Shown: piece by piece, positions 38,349 through 60,578 of the stretch
Layout: each line of letters begins with the position of its first letter
Numbering within the stretch: position 1 is the first letter of the stretch
Source of the DNA: Chloroflexota bacterium
GTDB taxonomy: Bacteria; Chloroflexota; Anaerolineae; Anaerolineales; Villigracilaceae
Direction: 5' to 3'
DNA length: 64,000 bases
NCBI GenBank assembly: GCA_016223135.1
Contig: JACRPQ010000006.1
Location: 62,001 to 126,000, forward strand
Program-made: the position numbers and the translations under genes
Notes under the pieces: generated by a model
Told to the model about the DNA's origin: nothing
The model's database searches: none
Seen by the model: the letters and a program-made list of their open reading frames with translations, nothing else

Positions 38349-39002
38349 ATGGACTTCATCGCTCAATTCGAATCCCGCCTGCCCGAATCTCTTCGCCGCC
38401 TCTTCCGCAGCCTCGACACGCCCTTTGCCATCCAAAATTATCTCGACACCATCACCTACAAAGGCGAAGAGCGCGACCGCTCCCCCCTCAACGTGATGCT
38501 CGATAATCAAGGGCATTGCCTCGACGGCGGATTCCTCGCCGCGCTTTGCCTGTGGCGCATCGGATTCAAACCGCTCCTGCTCGACATTGTCCCCGACCCC
38601 GGCGTGGACGATGACCATGTCCTGGCGTTGTATCAGATTGAAGGTCGCTGGGGAGCCGTGGCAAAGACCAATTACATCTTCCTCGGTTTCCGCGAGCCGG
38701 TCTATAAAAACTTCCGCGAATTGGTAATGACCTACTTCGAGCATTACGTCAGCATCCACAAACGAAAGGTGCTGACCGGCTACCTGCGTCCCTTCGACGC
38801 TTCGCGCTACACTCACCTCAACTGGGCGTGGGATGAGACTGGGGCAAACATCCTGTACCACAAACACTTCTACGGGCGGAAACCCATTCCCCTCATTACC
38901 AAAAGCATGGCGGCACGCCTCAGCCCTGTCACCGATCGCACGTACCAGGCGGAAACCCTCTTCACCGATTTGAACGAGTCGTTTGGAAACCGAAAATATT
39001 AA
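38349..39002 (+). CDS. Transglutaminase-like protein of unknown function
   Basis: A 217-residue soluble protein. GHCLDGGFLAALCLWRIGFKPLLLD followed by DDDHVLALY gives a Cys ... His arrangement like that of transglutaminase/papain-fold proteins, but the third catalytic residue is not certain. The role is unknown. The start ATG at 38349 fits TATAAT at 38328-38333, 15 bases upstream; a longer frame reaching back to 38238 would run through that promoter. Confidence 0.65.
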   Translation: MDFIAQFESRLPESLRRLFRSLDTPFAIQNYLDTITYKGEERDRSPLNVMLDNQGHCLDGGFLAALCLWRIGFKPLLLDIVPDPGVDDDHVLALYQIEGRWGAVAKTNYIFLGFREPVYKNFRELVMTYFEHYVSIHKRKVLTGYLRPFDASRYTHLNWAWDETGANILYHKHFYGRKPIPLITKSMAARLSPVTDRTYQAETLFTDLNESFGNRKY

Positions 39003-39104
39003 CGTCAGTTCGGGATAAGCGTCCCGAAGGCTGATTCTGTTCTCGAACCCGCTGCGTCAAAAGCCTTCGGGACGATTCAAAAGCCTTATCCCGAATTCAG
39101 GTTA
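39001..39104. repeat. 104-bp palindromic repeat, copy A
   Basis: Nested inverted repeat: outer arms TTCGGGATAAG (39009-39019) and CTTATCCCGAA (39085-39095), inner arms CGTCCCGAAGGCT (39020-39032) and AGCCTTCGGGACG (39062-39074). By eye it differs from 55188-55291 at a single base. It lies just downstream of the transglutaminase-like gene. Confidence 0.9.
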
Positions 39105-39117
39105 TTAACCACCCAGG

Positions 39118-39146
39118 TTGTGAGCGATTCCAAATAAATGTACAAT
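39118..39146 (+). promoter_or_regulatory. Promoter of the FAD dehydrogenase gene (leaderless)
   Basis: TTGTGA (39118-39123), 17-base spacer, TACAAT (39141-39146); the ATG at 39153 follows after six bases. Confidence 0.6.
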
Positions 39147-39152
39147 GGGAGC

Positions 39153-42068
39153 ATGGAATTCGCCGCGCGGCTCTCCCAAATCATCCACCCGTCCCGCGTC
39201 CATACCCGCCTGATTGACCGCATCGCCTACGCCAACGACGCGTCGTATTTTCGGCTGGTGCCGCAGGCAGTGGTACAGCCCAACTCCATCGGGGAAATTC
39301 AGGCGCTGTTCAAATTCACTCAACAACACAAAATTCCCATGACCTTCCGCGCCGCCGGGACAAGCCTTTCGGGGCAGGCGGTCACGGACGGTATCCTCGT
39401 GGACATCTCCAAGCATTGGGACAAATACAGCATCGAAGACGACGCAAAACACATCCGCTTCCAACCTGGACTGGTGGGCGGATTCCTCAACACGGCGCTG
39501 AAGCCCCACCGACGCCGCATCGGACCTGATCCTGCATCGATTGACGCCTGCATGATGGGCGGCATCCTCGCCAACAACTCCAGCGGCATGTGCTGCGGCG
39601 TGACCGAAAACGCCTACCGCACCATCCACTCGATGACCTTTGTTTTGCCCAACGGCTTTACCCTCGACACCGCCGCGCCGAATGCCCGTCAAATCTTCGA
39701 GAACGAACAGCCGCACATCGCCAAAGGATTGCTCGAACTTAAGCGGAGAATCCTCGAAGCGCCCTCACCCCTGCGCCCCTCTCCCAGTGGGAGAGGGGAT
39801 GGGGGTGAGGGCGAGACCCTCGCGCAGCGCATCCGCCGCCGCTACCAGATGAAGAACACCAACGGCTATCTGCTCAACGCCTTTCTCGATTTCGACTCGC
39901 CGCTCGACATCCTTGTCCATCTGCTCATCGGCTCGGAAGGCACGCTGGGGTTTATCGCCGAAGCCGTACTCCATACCCTGCCCGATTACAGCTACAAATA
40001 CACGGGACAACTGTATTTCAAGAACACGCAGGACGCCGCCGACGCCATCTACCCGCTTGCACAATCGGGAGCGCGCGCCGCTGAAATCATGGATCGTCCC
40101 TCACTGCGTTCGGTCGAAGACCTGCCCGGCGCGCCGCCCCTCCTCAAGGAACTGCCCGGCAAAGCGACTGCCATTCTGGTGGAGTATCAGGCTGAAGATG
40201 CAGAATCAATTTCCAGATTTAGCAAAGAAGCGCAGCGCGTCGTCAAGAATCTCAAAGTGATTCACGATGTCCGCTTTACAGACGACCCTGTAGAGCAGGC
40301 GTCGCTTTGGAAACTACGCAAGGGCATCATCCCCTCGGTCGGCGCGATGCGTCCGCCCGCCACTACGCTGCTGTGCGAAGACATCGTTTTCCCCGTGCAA
40401 TCGCTGGCTGACGGCGTCACTAACTTGCAGTGTCTTTTCAACGAACACGGTTACGAGGAAGGTGTCATCTTCGGTCACGCCAAGGACGGCAACCTGCACT
40501 TCCTCATCGCGCAATCGTTCAACACCGAAGCCGAAACCCGCCGCTTTGCCGCGTTCATGGACGACCTCGTGCGCGTGGTCAGCGGCAAATACGACGGCGC
40601 GCTCAAAGCCGAGCATGGCACGGGGCGCAACACCGCGCCGTTCGTCGAAACCGAATGGGGCGCGGAGGCTTACGCCATCATGCGCGACCTCAAATCGCTG
40701 CTCGACCCCGATACCATGCTCAACCCCGGCGTCATCATCAACACTGACCCGCAGGCGCATGTGACCCATGTCAAAAGCATCGCGATGGTCGCGCCGGAAA
40801 TTGACAAGTGCATCGAATGTGGATTTTGCGAGTCGAAGTGTCCAAGCCGCCGCCTGACATTGACTCCCCGCCAGCGCATCGTCGTTCAGCGTGAACTCGC
40901 CTCCCTTCGCCTCGCCGCTTCGGACTCACCCGAGGCTGTCTCCCTCTCGAAAGACTTTCTCTACGCTGGCATCGAAACCTGCGCCGCCGATGGGTTGTGC
41001 GCCACCGCCTGCCCTGTGGGCATCAACACGGGAGAATACATCAAGAAATTAAGAGCAAAGAAAGTGCAAAGCGCCGCCCTGAGCAAGTCGAAGGGTGGAA
41101 AATGGGCGGCATGGATGGCGGATCATTTCGCTTTGGCTGAAAAGACCATCGGCGCCGGCGTGACCCTTGGGCACATTGCTGAAAAAGTCATCGGTGTGAA
41201 CGGATTGAATTCCGTCCTGCGGGCAGCGGAAAAAATCTCAAAGACAACTTTGCCAAAGTGGAACGATTCCATCCCTCACCCCACTCGCTCCGCTCGTCTC
41301 CCCTCTCCCAATGGGAGAGGGGTTGGGGGTGAGGGTAATTTCATTTATTTCCCCTCCTGCATCTCGCGCCAATTGGGGCAGCCTCAATTACCATTTACCA
41401 ATCGCCAATCTCTCGCCCAAACCTTCACCGTCATCGCCAACCGCGCCAACATCCGCCTCCACATTCCCACAAACGTGACCGGTCTCTGTTGCGGCATGCC
41501 CTTCCACTCAAAGGGCTATACGCGGGCATATCAGACCGCGCTTCACAAAACACTGCTCGCCATGTGGGAGTGGTCGGAGCAGGGCAAGTACCCCATCGTG
41601 ATTGACACCACCTCCTGTACCCACTCCCTGCGCATCTGCGGAGATGACCTCAGCATCGAAGACAAAGCCCTGTGGGAAAAACTCACGCTTCTTGACGGCA
41701 TCGAATTTCTGCACGACCACGTTCTTCCCAAACTCCGCCTCCACCGCTTGGACGAAGATGTGACGCTGCACCCCAACTGTTCTCTGCGCAGGCTTGGCTT
41801 GGAGGGGAAAATGCTGTCCATCGCGAAGCAATGTGCGAGGTCCGCGCACGTACCGTTGAATCTTGGTTGCTGCGCCTTCGCCGGCGACCGCGGATTGCTT
41901 TATCCCGAACTAACCGCCTCTGCCACCGAAAAAGAATCCGCTGAAGTCCTTGGCGGTGACTACCACGGCTATTATTCATCCAACATCCCCTGCGAAATCG
42001 GCATGTCCGAAGCAACGGGAAAGGACTACGTTTCGATTGCGTATCTGGTGGAAAGGGCAAGCAGGTAA
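39153..42068 (+). CDS. FAD-linked 2-hydroxyacid dehydrogenase fused to Fe-S/CCG domains (YdiJ/Dld-II-like)
   Basis: A 971-residue membrane-associated flavoenzyme type. Residues 1-540 are FAD-binding (FRAAGTSLSGQAVTDG, GPDPASIDACMMGGILANNSSG) plus FAD-oxidase C-terminal domains (FGHAKDGNLHF, KAEHGTGRN). Two 4Fe-4S motifs follow, CIECGFCESKC and CAADGLCATACPVG, then two CCG domains (GLCCGMPFHSKGY, NLGCCAFAGDRG). D-lactate, D-2-hydroxyglutarate or glycolate are possible substrates. Three short stretches are encoded by dispersed repeats (39762-39811, 41273-41335, 41386-41411). The ATG at 39153 is six bases after TACAAT; the earlier ATG at 39138 would overlap the promoter. Confidence 0.8.
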   Translation: MEFAARLSQIIHPSRVHTRLIDRIAYANDASYFRLVPQAVVQPNSIGEIQALFKFTQQHKIPMTFRAAGTSLSGQAVTDGILVDISKHWDKYSIEDDAKHIRFQPGLVGGFLNTALKPHRRRIGPDPASIDACMMGGILANNSSGMCCGVTENAYRTIHSMTFVLPNGFTLDTAAPNARQIFENEQPHIAKGLLELKRRILEAPSPLRPSPSGRGDGGEGETLAQRIRRRYQMKNTNGYLLNAFLDFDSPLDILVHLLIGSEGTLGFIAEAVLHTLPDYSYKYTGQLYFKNTQDAADAIYPLAQSGARAAEIMDRPSLRSVEDLPGAPPLLKELPGKATAILVEYQAEDAESISRFSKEAQRVVKNLKVIHDVRFTDDPVEQASLWKLRKGIIPSVGAMRPPATTLLCEDIVFPVQSLADGVTNLQCLFNEHGYEEGVIFGHAKDGNLHFLIAQSFNTEAETRRFAAFMDDLVRVVSGKYDGALKAEHGTGRNTAPFVETEWGAEAYAIMRDLKSLLDPDTMLNPGVIINTDPQAHVTHVKSIAMVAPEIDKCIECGFCESKCPSRRLTLTPRQRIVVQRELASLRLAASDSPEAVSLSKDFLYAGIETCAADGLCATACPVGINTGEYIKKLRAKKVQSAALSKSKGGKWAAWMADHFALAEKTIGAGVTLGHIAEKVIGVNGLNSVLRAAEKISKTTLPKWNDSIPHPTRSARLPSPNGRGVGGEGNFIYFPSCISRQLGQPQLPFTNRQSLAQTFTVIANRANIRLHIPTNVTGLCCGMPFHSKGYTRAYQTALHKTLLAMWEWSEQGKYPIVIDTTSCTHSLRICGDDLSIEDKALWEKLTLLDGIEFLHDHVLPKLRLHRLDEDVTLHPNCSLRRLGLEGKMLSIAKQCARSAHVPLNLGCCAFAGDRGLLYPELTASATEKESAEVLGGDYHGYYSSNIPCEIGMSEATGKDYVSIAYLVERASR
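39762..39811. repeat. Palindromic repeat in frame in the FAD dehydrogenase gene, site 1
   Basis: Nested palindrome: outer CCCTCACCC ... GGGTGAGGG, inner CCCCTCTCCC / GGGAGAGGGG around AGT. It encodes PSPLRPSPSGRGDGGEG (about residues 204-220), low-complexity sequence within the FAD domain, in a surface loop by inference. Confidence 0.8.
41273..41335. repeat. Palindromic repeat in frame in the FAD dehydrogenase gene, site 2
   Basis: Same family as 39762-39811: outer CCCTCACCCC / GGGGGTGAGGG, inner CCCCTCTCCC / GGGAGAGGGG around AAT, plus 13 extra bases. It encodes PHPTRSARLPSPNGRGVGGEG (about residues 707-728), directly before the first CCG domain. Confidence 0.82.
41386..41411. repeat. ATTACCATTTACCAAT-type repeat inside the FAD dehydrogenase gene
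   Basis: Resembles the palindrome before fdhA (8654-8676). It encodes QLPFTNRQ in the first CCG domain region. Short, so this could be chance. Confidence 0.4.
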
Positions 42069-55178: not shown

Positions 55179-55187
55179 AATGTAACT

Positions 55188-55291
55188 AACGTCAGTTCGG
55201 GATAAGCGTCCCGAAGGCTGATTCTGCTCTCGAACCCGCTGCGTCAAAAGCCTTCGGGACGATTCAAAAGCCTTATCCCGAATTCAGGTTA
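55188..55291. repeat. 104-bp palindromic repeat, copy B
   Basis: Same element as 39001-39104, with one base difference (T to C in the central part). It lies directly after the large lipoprotein gene. Confidence 0.9.
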
Positions 55292-55299
55292 ATTACCCC

Positions 55300-60128: not shown

Positions 60129-60395
60129 TTATGGTTTCGTCTCAGTGCGGCTGAACCAATCGCCCGCGAGAAGAAAGAGGACGCTGCCCAGAGATGACAT
60201 TCCCAAATTCAACAAGCCCAACGGCAGAAAAACCCATCCGCGCCACGCGCCGAACAAATGCCCGGCTGTAAATCCCAAAACGCTCAAGAGGAGATACAAC
60301 AGCAAGCGCCCACCCCCTCCGCCGCGCAGCAGGTGATACAGCACGCCGTAACTCAGGGCAATGAGCAGGGCAAGCAAAAGCGAAGGTACAGTCAT
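60129..60395 (-). CDS. Small three-segment membrane protein
   Basis: No family recognised. The 88 residues form three hydrophobic segments separated by short loops (RGGGGG; GAWRGW). The size and layout recall subunits such as AtpI/AtpZ-like or other small accessory proteins, but there is no specific evidence. The ATG and first five codons fall in the first copy of a tandem repeat (60379-60578), and no ribosome site is visible. Confidence 0.5.
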   Translation of the reverse strand: MTVPSLLLALLIALSYGVLYHLLRGGGGGRLLLYLLLSVLGFTAGHLFGAWRGWVFLPLGLLNLGMSSLGSVLFLLAGDWFSRTETKP

Positions 60396-60578
60396 GAGGG
60401 GAATGAATTCACAAGGTTACATGAGTGCGTACAAAAAGACAATCATCCACGAAGGACACGAAGAACACCAAGAAATTTCCGAAGCGAAGGTACAGTCATG
60501 AGGGAAATGAATTCACAAGGTTACATGAGTGCAGTACAAAAAGACAATCATCCACGAAGGACACGAAGAAATTTCCGA
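60379..60578. repeat. Tandem duplication of about 104 bp
   Basis: 60379-60482 and 60483-60578 are near-identical copies (one substitution, one inserted A, nine bases missing from the second). Each contains CCACGAAGGACACGAAG. The first copy includes the start codon of the small membrane protein gene. Confidence 0.85.

Follow-up and report, generated by a model that had tools for sequence, protein, structure and literature searches.

Why should a single gene carry two copies of the same palindrome, both in frame? The question is raised by a 64,000-nucleotide (nt) stretch of contig JACRPQ010000006.1 from a Chloroflexota bacterium of the family Villigracilaceae (hereafter the window), in which a gene for an FAD-linked dehydrogenase holds two such palindromes. 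Judging from sequence comparison, both are solo copies, in frame, of a repeat of the G/C-rich intrastrand triplex (TM/PIT) type, which is very widespread. In many other genomes the same motif bounds a DUF559 domain, and the explanation that we regard as probable, taken as a whole, is that solo TM/PIT palindromes and motif-DUF559-motif units belong to one system in which the latter would be the autonomous form and the whole would be mobile.

A widespread repeat of the triplex type

The genome (3.82 Mb, 19 contigs) contains 34 exact cores of the form CCCTCTCCC-N2-12-GGGAGAGGG, as against none for a reversed-pattern control. A covariance model built on 22 of these copies gave at least 73 matches in the genome (150 of 1892 candidates were scored, the two strands being counted apart), further and weaker members included. 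A search of the locus against Rfam returned five matches up to an E-value of 1, all below the gathering score of the respective family. One locus of the same genome (L037:3001) resembles, by eye, the long form found in Escherichia coli: it is a two-ended element with a short spacer and arms in the order C-C-G and then C-G-G.

The plan of the palindromes is that of TM_ECO, earlier named the PIT motif, with the consensus CCCTCNCCC-N3-6-GGGNGAGGG-N3-GGGNGAGGG (Holder et al. 2015, PMC4666352). That paper defines a TM in general as a C-rich stem, a G-rich stem and a second G-rich stem of 6-15 nt with loops of 1-6 nt. Both window copies fall within this definition, with 9-nt stems and loops of 3 and 5 nt. 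The second loop is 5 nt in both as opposed to 3 nt in the strict TM_ECO consensus, so we file them as TM type, outside TM_ECO proper. They share with TM_ECO the C9-loop-G9-loop-G9 plan, the CCCTCNCCC and GGGNGAGGG arms and high copy number, and both inverted palindromic forms and deletion forms are described for TM_ECO (PMC4666352). The paper reports TM_ECO from Proteobacteria (3610 sites in 262 genomes), with all 23 sites of strain MG1655 intergenic, whereas the window copies lie inside a gene of a Chloroflexota genome. It also states that its authors never found mobility functions in the surroundings of TM_ECO, so the spread of the repeat was an open question.

The core is present in 49 of the 61 genomes of the order, own genome included. 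A scan of public genomes gave at least 115 core-bearing stretches, 80 of which were taken as loci. Among the matches listed, record titles name Acidobacteria, Gamma- and Betaproteobacteria, Planctomycetota, Nostoc, Chloroflexi, Akkermansiaceae, Peribacteria, Armatimonadetes, Desulfobotulus, Bacillota and others. Since metagenome bins are numerous here, an individual assignment may reflect a binning error.

DUF559 domains between copies of the motif

A search for shared genes in the 80 cross-phylum loci pointed to tRNA synthetases and methylases, and scanning of those proteins led to DUF559 (PF04480). We then considered 49 genomes not titled Chloroflexi that had been chosen because they bear the motif (three have no phylum in the title, and the genome of locus L092 is not among them). 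DUF559 was detected in 39 of these. A strict core lies within 150 nt of 32 of their 56 DUF559 domains, in 25 of 33 genomes, where 0.27 would be expected from each genome's own core number. For the relatives within the order, 20 regions were picked for long open reading frames (ORFs), together with the genome's own DUF559 copy, and stand-alone DUF559 genes were sampled from best-match loci. In ORFs of at least 240 aa, 13 of 16 DUF559 domains have a core within 150 nt, eight of the 16 on both sides; in shorter ORFs this holds for one of 27. Order-wide, at least four cores are found in 34 of the 48 genomes with DUF559 and in none of the 13 without, a comparison that ignores kinship.

The architecture of the units was examined in a set of 100 domains, all of at least 85 aa and none identical to another (L101, L289, L290 and L291 are among those excluded). 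Both ends could be classified in 31 units, and in 28 of these the flanking motifs are inverted, with a three-arm motif on each side (CGG/CCG in 22 units, CCG/CGG in 6). The spacing from motif to domain is regular, with medians of 58 nt on the left and 29 nt on the right. With a domain of about 0.33 kb plus the motifs, a unit measures very roughly 0.45-0.6 kb in total. Four pairs of units from different named host genes are alike past the domain on both sides, and in all four the homology stops at the motifs, as expected of one unit at unrelated locations. It reaches beyond the domain by 60 and 85 nt for HsdS/HsdR, 67 and 59 nt for HsdS/MmeI, 58 and 46 nt for HsdR/MmeI and 114 and 75 nt for MetH/HsdR, the last being limited by a contig end. 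In other different-host pairs the homology ends within the DUF559 domain. Where two units share a host gene, the likeness often runs for 1 kb or more on at least one side.

Units occur in frame in many unrelated host proteins across several phyla. Pfam identified the hosts in long ORFs of the relatives as MetH, valyl-tRNA synthetase (ValRS), UvrA, PIG-L, an APH-family protein and MTHFR, and those in other genomes as HsdR, HsdM, HsdS, MmeI, MetRS, a class II tRNA synthetase, RibD, RibE, GDE, HAD and GDSL proteins; five of the 20 scanned ORFs of other genomes had DUF559-type models only or no further host domain. No intron or intein was seen in the Pfam results for the units. ValRS is a recurrent host, with solo palindromes in frame at L018 (G000:C3:357367, own genome) and L133 and DUF559 units at L149 and L272.

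MetH allows a comparison across orthologues. In the linker that joins its pterin-binding and B12-binding domains, 7 of 31 aligned orthologues have a long, motif-bearing insert, in which DUF559 was confirmed by Pfam or a PF04480 search for four (G007, G024, G021, G044) and by likeness only for three (G071, G072, G075). One further sequence (G006) is cut by a contig end, and the linkers of the other 23 are short or unrelated, a few being motif-like (G022, G023, G069). MetH inserts (L278 and others) also carry a palindrome of another type, CCCTTCCCC...GGGGGAAGG...GGATGAGGG, nested next to the main one.

Across 40 embedded and 60 stand-alone DUF559 domains, the residues of nuclease type vary little or not at all. 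Of 28 MetH pairs, 10 had a usable dS and gave a ratio of nonsynonymous to synonymous substitution rates (dN/dS) of 0.06-0.19, the remaining pairs being saturated. A structure model of the L149 domain, from an alignment including three other motif-flanked copies, reached a pLDDT of 85.9. Its predicted fold matches a gonococcal endonuclease-like protein (3hrl, E 2.4e-8), I-Bth0305I (3r3p, 4.8e-5) and Vsr (1vsr, 0.018), and the combination of a nuclease fold with conserved acidic and His residues suggests a likeness to homing endonucleases. In a tree of the domain (107 columns; 37 of 97 inner branches open), the MetH copies of one family group together (96/98) to the exclusion of the MetH copy of G030, the two UvrA copies pair, and so do the two ValRS copies. 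Sister relations are also seen within genomes, between the RibD and RibE inserts of one (99/89) and between the HsdR and HsdM inserts of a second (94/89). The unflanked stand-alone DUF559 genes of the relatives mostly group apart. A search of the phage collection gave no DNA match to a MetH DUF559 unit; 43 records of the plasmid collection had a protein match to the domain, and the two E. coli records examined among them were both chromosome-sized.

In E. coli, a loose match to window copy 1 is present in 3962 of 5426 genomes. At one locus, the strains compared differ: some carry a pair of inverted motifs separated by a short spacer, some one four-arm palindrome, and some lack the motif, their flanks being diverged. 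From these sequences, the single palindrome was apparently left by a deletion between two inverted motifs, so palindromes of the window type may arise in this way. The E. coli DUF559 gene is ycjD (b1289 in MG1655), which has motif arms directly 3' of it and is matched in 3365 of the 5426 genomes. It is present in strain 55989, for which PMC4666352 lists 29 TM_ECO sites. In IHE3034, for which one site is listed, the interval from fabI to sapF is occupied by other genes and lacks ycjD. In a spread sample of 60 rows, with H165 excluded (no sapF place), the places per genome matching a ycjD-plus-motif query averaged 4.27 in the 37 rows that have ycjD and 2.59 in the 22 that lack it (Mann-Whitney p = 2.7e-6), lineage being ignored.

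We propose that the motif-DUF559-motif unit would be the autonomous form of a mobile element, whose nuclease would cut DNA, with repair then copying in the unit bounded by the motifs. Palindromes that stand alone, like the window pair, would be either non-autonomous copies or what a deletion between two inverted motifs leaves behind, the latter being an option that the series of states in E. coli fits. Copies within genes could survive through stop-free frames encoding Pro/Ser/Gly-rich, probably flexible segments in tolerant loops, and selection rather than target sequence would determine the sites where they persist. In its broadest form, TM/PIT palindromes may well be the ends of an unrecognised class of mobile elements with a DUF559 endonuclease of Vsr fold, which would insert in frame and unspliced, by way of palindrome-encoded linkers, into important proteins (tRNA synthetases, MetH, UvrA, restriction enzymes), with solo palindromes as the miniature form and ycjD as the representative in E. 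coli.

Several observations weigh against this proposal. Ten of the 49 motif-bearing genomes have no DUF559 match, yet contain 1 to 219 cores, and nine of the ten also lack MTES_1575. Only four of the 80 motif-selected loci hold DUF559, and each of the four has a core within 60 nt. The stand-alone genes of the relatives are mostly unflanked and many group in a separate clade, which would limit the involvement to part of the DUF559 family. The UvrA units have loose arms and no strict core, embedded domains of other phyla at L333, L358, L368, L369 and L377 lack a nearby core, and the genome's own DUF559 gene has degenerate arms only. Six E. coli rows without ycjD, among them an O157:H7 strain, have four or five places. 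The counts ignore kinship throughout. We observed neither a target-site duplication nor any movement; element-free sites were found in relatives that are too diverged or rearranged for exact junctions. Given the motif-bearing genomes without DUF559, the few DUF559 loci, the degenerate arms of the own gene, kinship and a correlation with Y1_Tnp (see below), that DUF559 moves the motif is a step we infer.

The alternative that best withstands the evidence is that the motif moves or forms alone, through replication slippage promoted by its structure, triplex-induced instability or an unknown enzyme, and that DUF559 is a passenger captured between two motifs. The motif-rich genomes without a DUF559 match fit this explanation, as does the link that Holder et al. 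draw between motif and instability (PMC4666352). The regular spacing, the inverted ends around DUF559 in several phyla and the conserved nuclease residues suggest a working partner instead, and we consider a mere passenger possible but unlikely. DUF559 might also be a homing endonuclease that targets the palindrome and inserts into pre-existing motifs, an idea compatible with its predicted homing-endonuclease-like fold and with the motif at the unit edges. Splitting of a palindrome would, however, leave half motifs (CC on one side, GG on the other), whereas most classifiable units have three arms per side, which makes this quite improbable. Movement of the palindromes by a Y1 transposase of the RAYT type, as with REPs, has very little probability. 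Y1_Tnp is found in 57 of the 61 relatives, and its number is weakly correlated with that of the cores (rho 0.41), but none of the 34 Y1 loci (103 kb) has a strict core, a result that is weak alone with about 0.9 expected by chance, and the GTAG tag of the REP type was not seen by eye at the element edge. Y1_Tnp was accordingly rejected as the flanking gene, and with it membership in REP/RAYT.

The window palindromes and their sites

Both palindromes were verified at the coordinates in Table 1. The host gene encodes a protein like D-lactate, glycolate and 2-hydroxyglutarate dehydrogenases, with LctD, glycolate oxidase and D-LDH as solved relatives. In the 971-aa numbering (start at 39153), Pfam places FAD_binding_4 at residues 37-172, FAD-oxidase_C at 287-527 and the 4Fe-4S domain (Fer4_8) at 549-624. 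Copy 1 encodes residues ~204-220, within an extension absent from the two aligned solved homologues, since their alignments skip query residues ~173-253; copy 2 encodes residues ~707-728. The encoded peptides are PSPLRPSPSGRGDGGEG and RSARLPSPNGRGVGGEG, respectively. Of the six frames on both strands, four are stop-free in each copy and encode Pro/Ser/Gly/Glu-rich segments. Folded as single-stranded DNA, copy 1 has an energy of -23.2 and copy 2 of -21.3 kcal/mol, equalled in neither case by any of 200 shuffles.

Table 1. Coordinates of the dehydrogenase gene and its two palindromes in the window
Feature	Position	Strand	Description
Host gene	39138..42068	+	976-aa ORF; FAD-linked dehydrogenase fused to a 4Fe-4S part; start at 39138 or 39153
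Palindrome copy 1	39762..39811	.	50 nt; four arms C-C-G-G; in frame; linker between two FAD domains
Copy 1 arms	39762-39770; 39777-39785; 39789-39797; 39803-39811		CCCTCACCC; CCCTCTCCC; loop AGT; GGGAGAGGG; GGGTGAGGG
Copy 1 core hairpin	39777..39797	.	CCCTCTCCC AGT GGGAGAGGG
Palindrome copy 2	41273..41335	.	63 nt; in frame; C-terminal to the Fe-S domain
Copy 2 arms	41273-41281; 41301-41309; 41313-41321; 41327-41335		identical to the four arms of copy 1; left interior longer
Copy 2 core hairpin	41301..41321	.	CCCTCTCCC AAT GGGAGAGGG

The first-pass annotation of this locus had suggested that the two copies were independent insertions, and that internal duplication would be the better explanation if the genome held just these two. 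The 34 exact cores exclude that situation, and the orthologues agree with separate origins. Copy 1 is missing from all four orthologues that cover its site (G008, G012, G009 and G020, with protein identities of 83, 71, 69 and 57%). For copy 2, G008 as the closest relative holds at the corresponding site a degenerate palindrome that is related but not the same and that the covariance model also finds (G008:C31:63957-64007). The other five aligned orthologues have different linkers of varying length. Copy 2 is therefore probably the older, and copy 1 is probably younger or was lost elsewhere, as far as these alignments indicate. Internal duplication within the gene, or chance G/C-rich sequence, can be dismissed: the two copies show 94% identity over their final 36 nt, but their surroundings differ, G008 has a counterpart of copy 2 only, and the genome-wide copies stand against a control of zero.

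Target preference and relaxed constraint had been offered as reasons for two insertions into one gene. Each of the two sites falls in a linker of variable length. This speaks for tolerance of the site rather than choice of a target, and tolerance is the better supported of the two. Variation at sites in the aromatic-amino-acid gene cluster, where relatives hold a different palindrome, another small repeat or nothing, agrees with relaxed constraint; as regards target preference, no sequence-level bias was seen, without a formal test. At the sites of L031 (L241 and L229), relatives hold other small repeats in place of the palindrome, for example a TCGAG-hairpin in G008 and CCTTCGACTCACTCAGGA in G007. 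Clustering of the cores is modest, with seven adjacent pairs within 5 kb as against 1.44 expected (P = 0.00025), and is mostly due to five copies in the aromatic-amino-acid gene cluster. Two adjacent pairs lie within 1.6 kb where 0.47 are expected (P = 0.08), so that one such pair is unremarkable alone.

Strand preference means little for a palindrome. Seventeen of the 34 copies were judged from codon scores to be in genes (L030 and L031:7465 were excluded as unclear and L024 was kept though weak), and their reading phases are distributed 9:3:5. Avoidance of genes was not shown for the 34 own copies, 18-22 of which are spanned by ORFs as compared with 53-77% of random positions (p = 0.1-1.0); the cross-phylum loci show a mild depletion in ORF spans (p = 0.0013-0.049).

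The window also contains other repeats. A 111-nt dispersed repeat occurs at 39000-39110, directly upstream of the dehydrogenase gene, and at 55187-55297, the two copies being 97% identical. A dispersed repeat of similar length, ~110 nt, has copies elsewhere in the genome that are 96-98% identical (L031:5637-5754). At 60378-60570, a stretch of ~104 nt is present in two adjacent copies, 98-100% identical in parts.

Comparison with known systems

DUF559 has been encountered in other settings. Repeated segments with a transposase and DUF559 are reported as putative recombination hotspots in Legionella (PMC12308824), and a Vsr-like DUF559 protein is reported to cause DNA damage in Caulobacter (PMC12907096). 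We found no account of motif-bounded DUF559 units in a literature search whose coverage left out most subscription papers. A conserved, specific nuclease in motif-bounded units makes the question of how the repeat spreads testable, also in E. coli K-12 by way of ycjD. The units may also offer an origin for the Pro/Gly-rich inserts of the PSPxGRGxGGEG type in annotated proteins.

Short palindromes that lie in frame within protein-coding genes are familiar from the Rickettsia palindromic elements. These differ from the window palindromes in sequence and lineage, and we know of no nuclease partner for them.

The homing endonuclease I-Bth0305I, of the EDxHD or Vsr-like type, is comparable in its nuclease fold and as a selfish gene within other genes, as described in PMC3943268. 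DUF559 units differ in being bounded by inverted palindromes and in occupying many unrelated host genes, and homing is invoked here only by analogy. If the proposed mechanism is true, endonuclease domains can live inside important enzymes without splicing of the intein type.

The closest parallel in design is the REP/RAYT system, in which a nuclease gene lies between two inverted palindromic repeats, many solo repeats are found elsewhere and repeat number tracks the presence of the gene, according to Nunvar et al. 2010 (PMC2817692). A nuclease gene between inverted repeats is likewise what we see in the 28 inverted units among the 31 classifiable ones, a likeness of design only, not of membership. 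The enzyme is DUF559/Vsr-like here as opposed to a Y1 HUH transposase, the repeat sequence differs, and DUF559 units reside in frame inside host proteins. If the nuclease moves the repeat, the TM/PIT palindromes and DUF559 would represent a second, independent palindrome-plus-nuclease design beside REP/RAYT.

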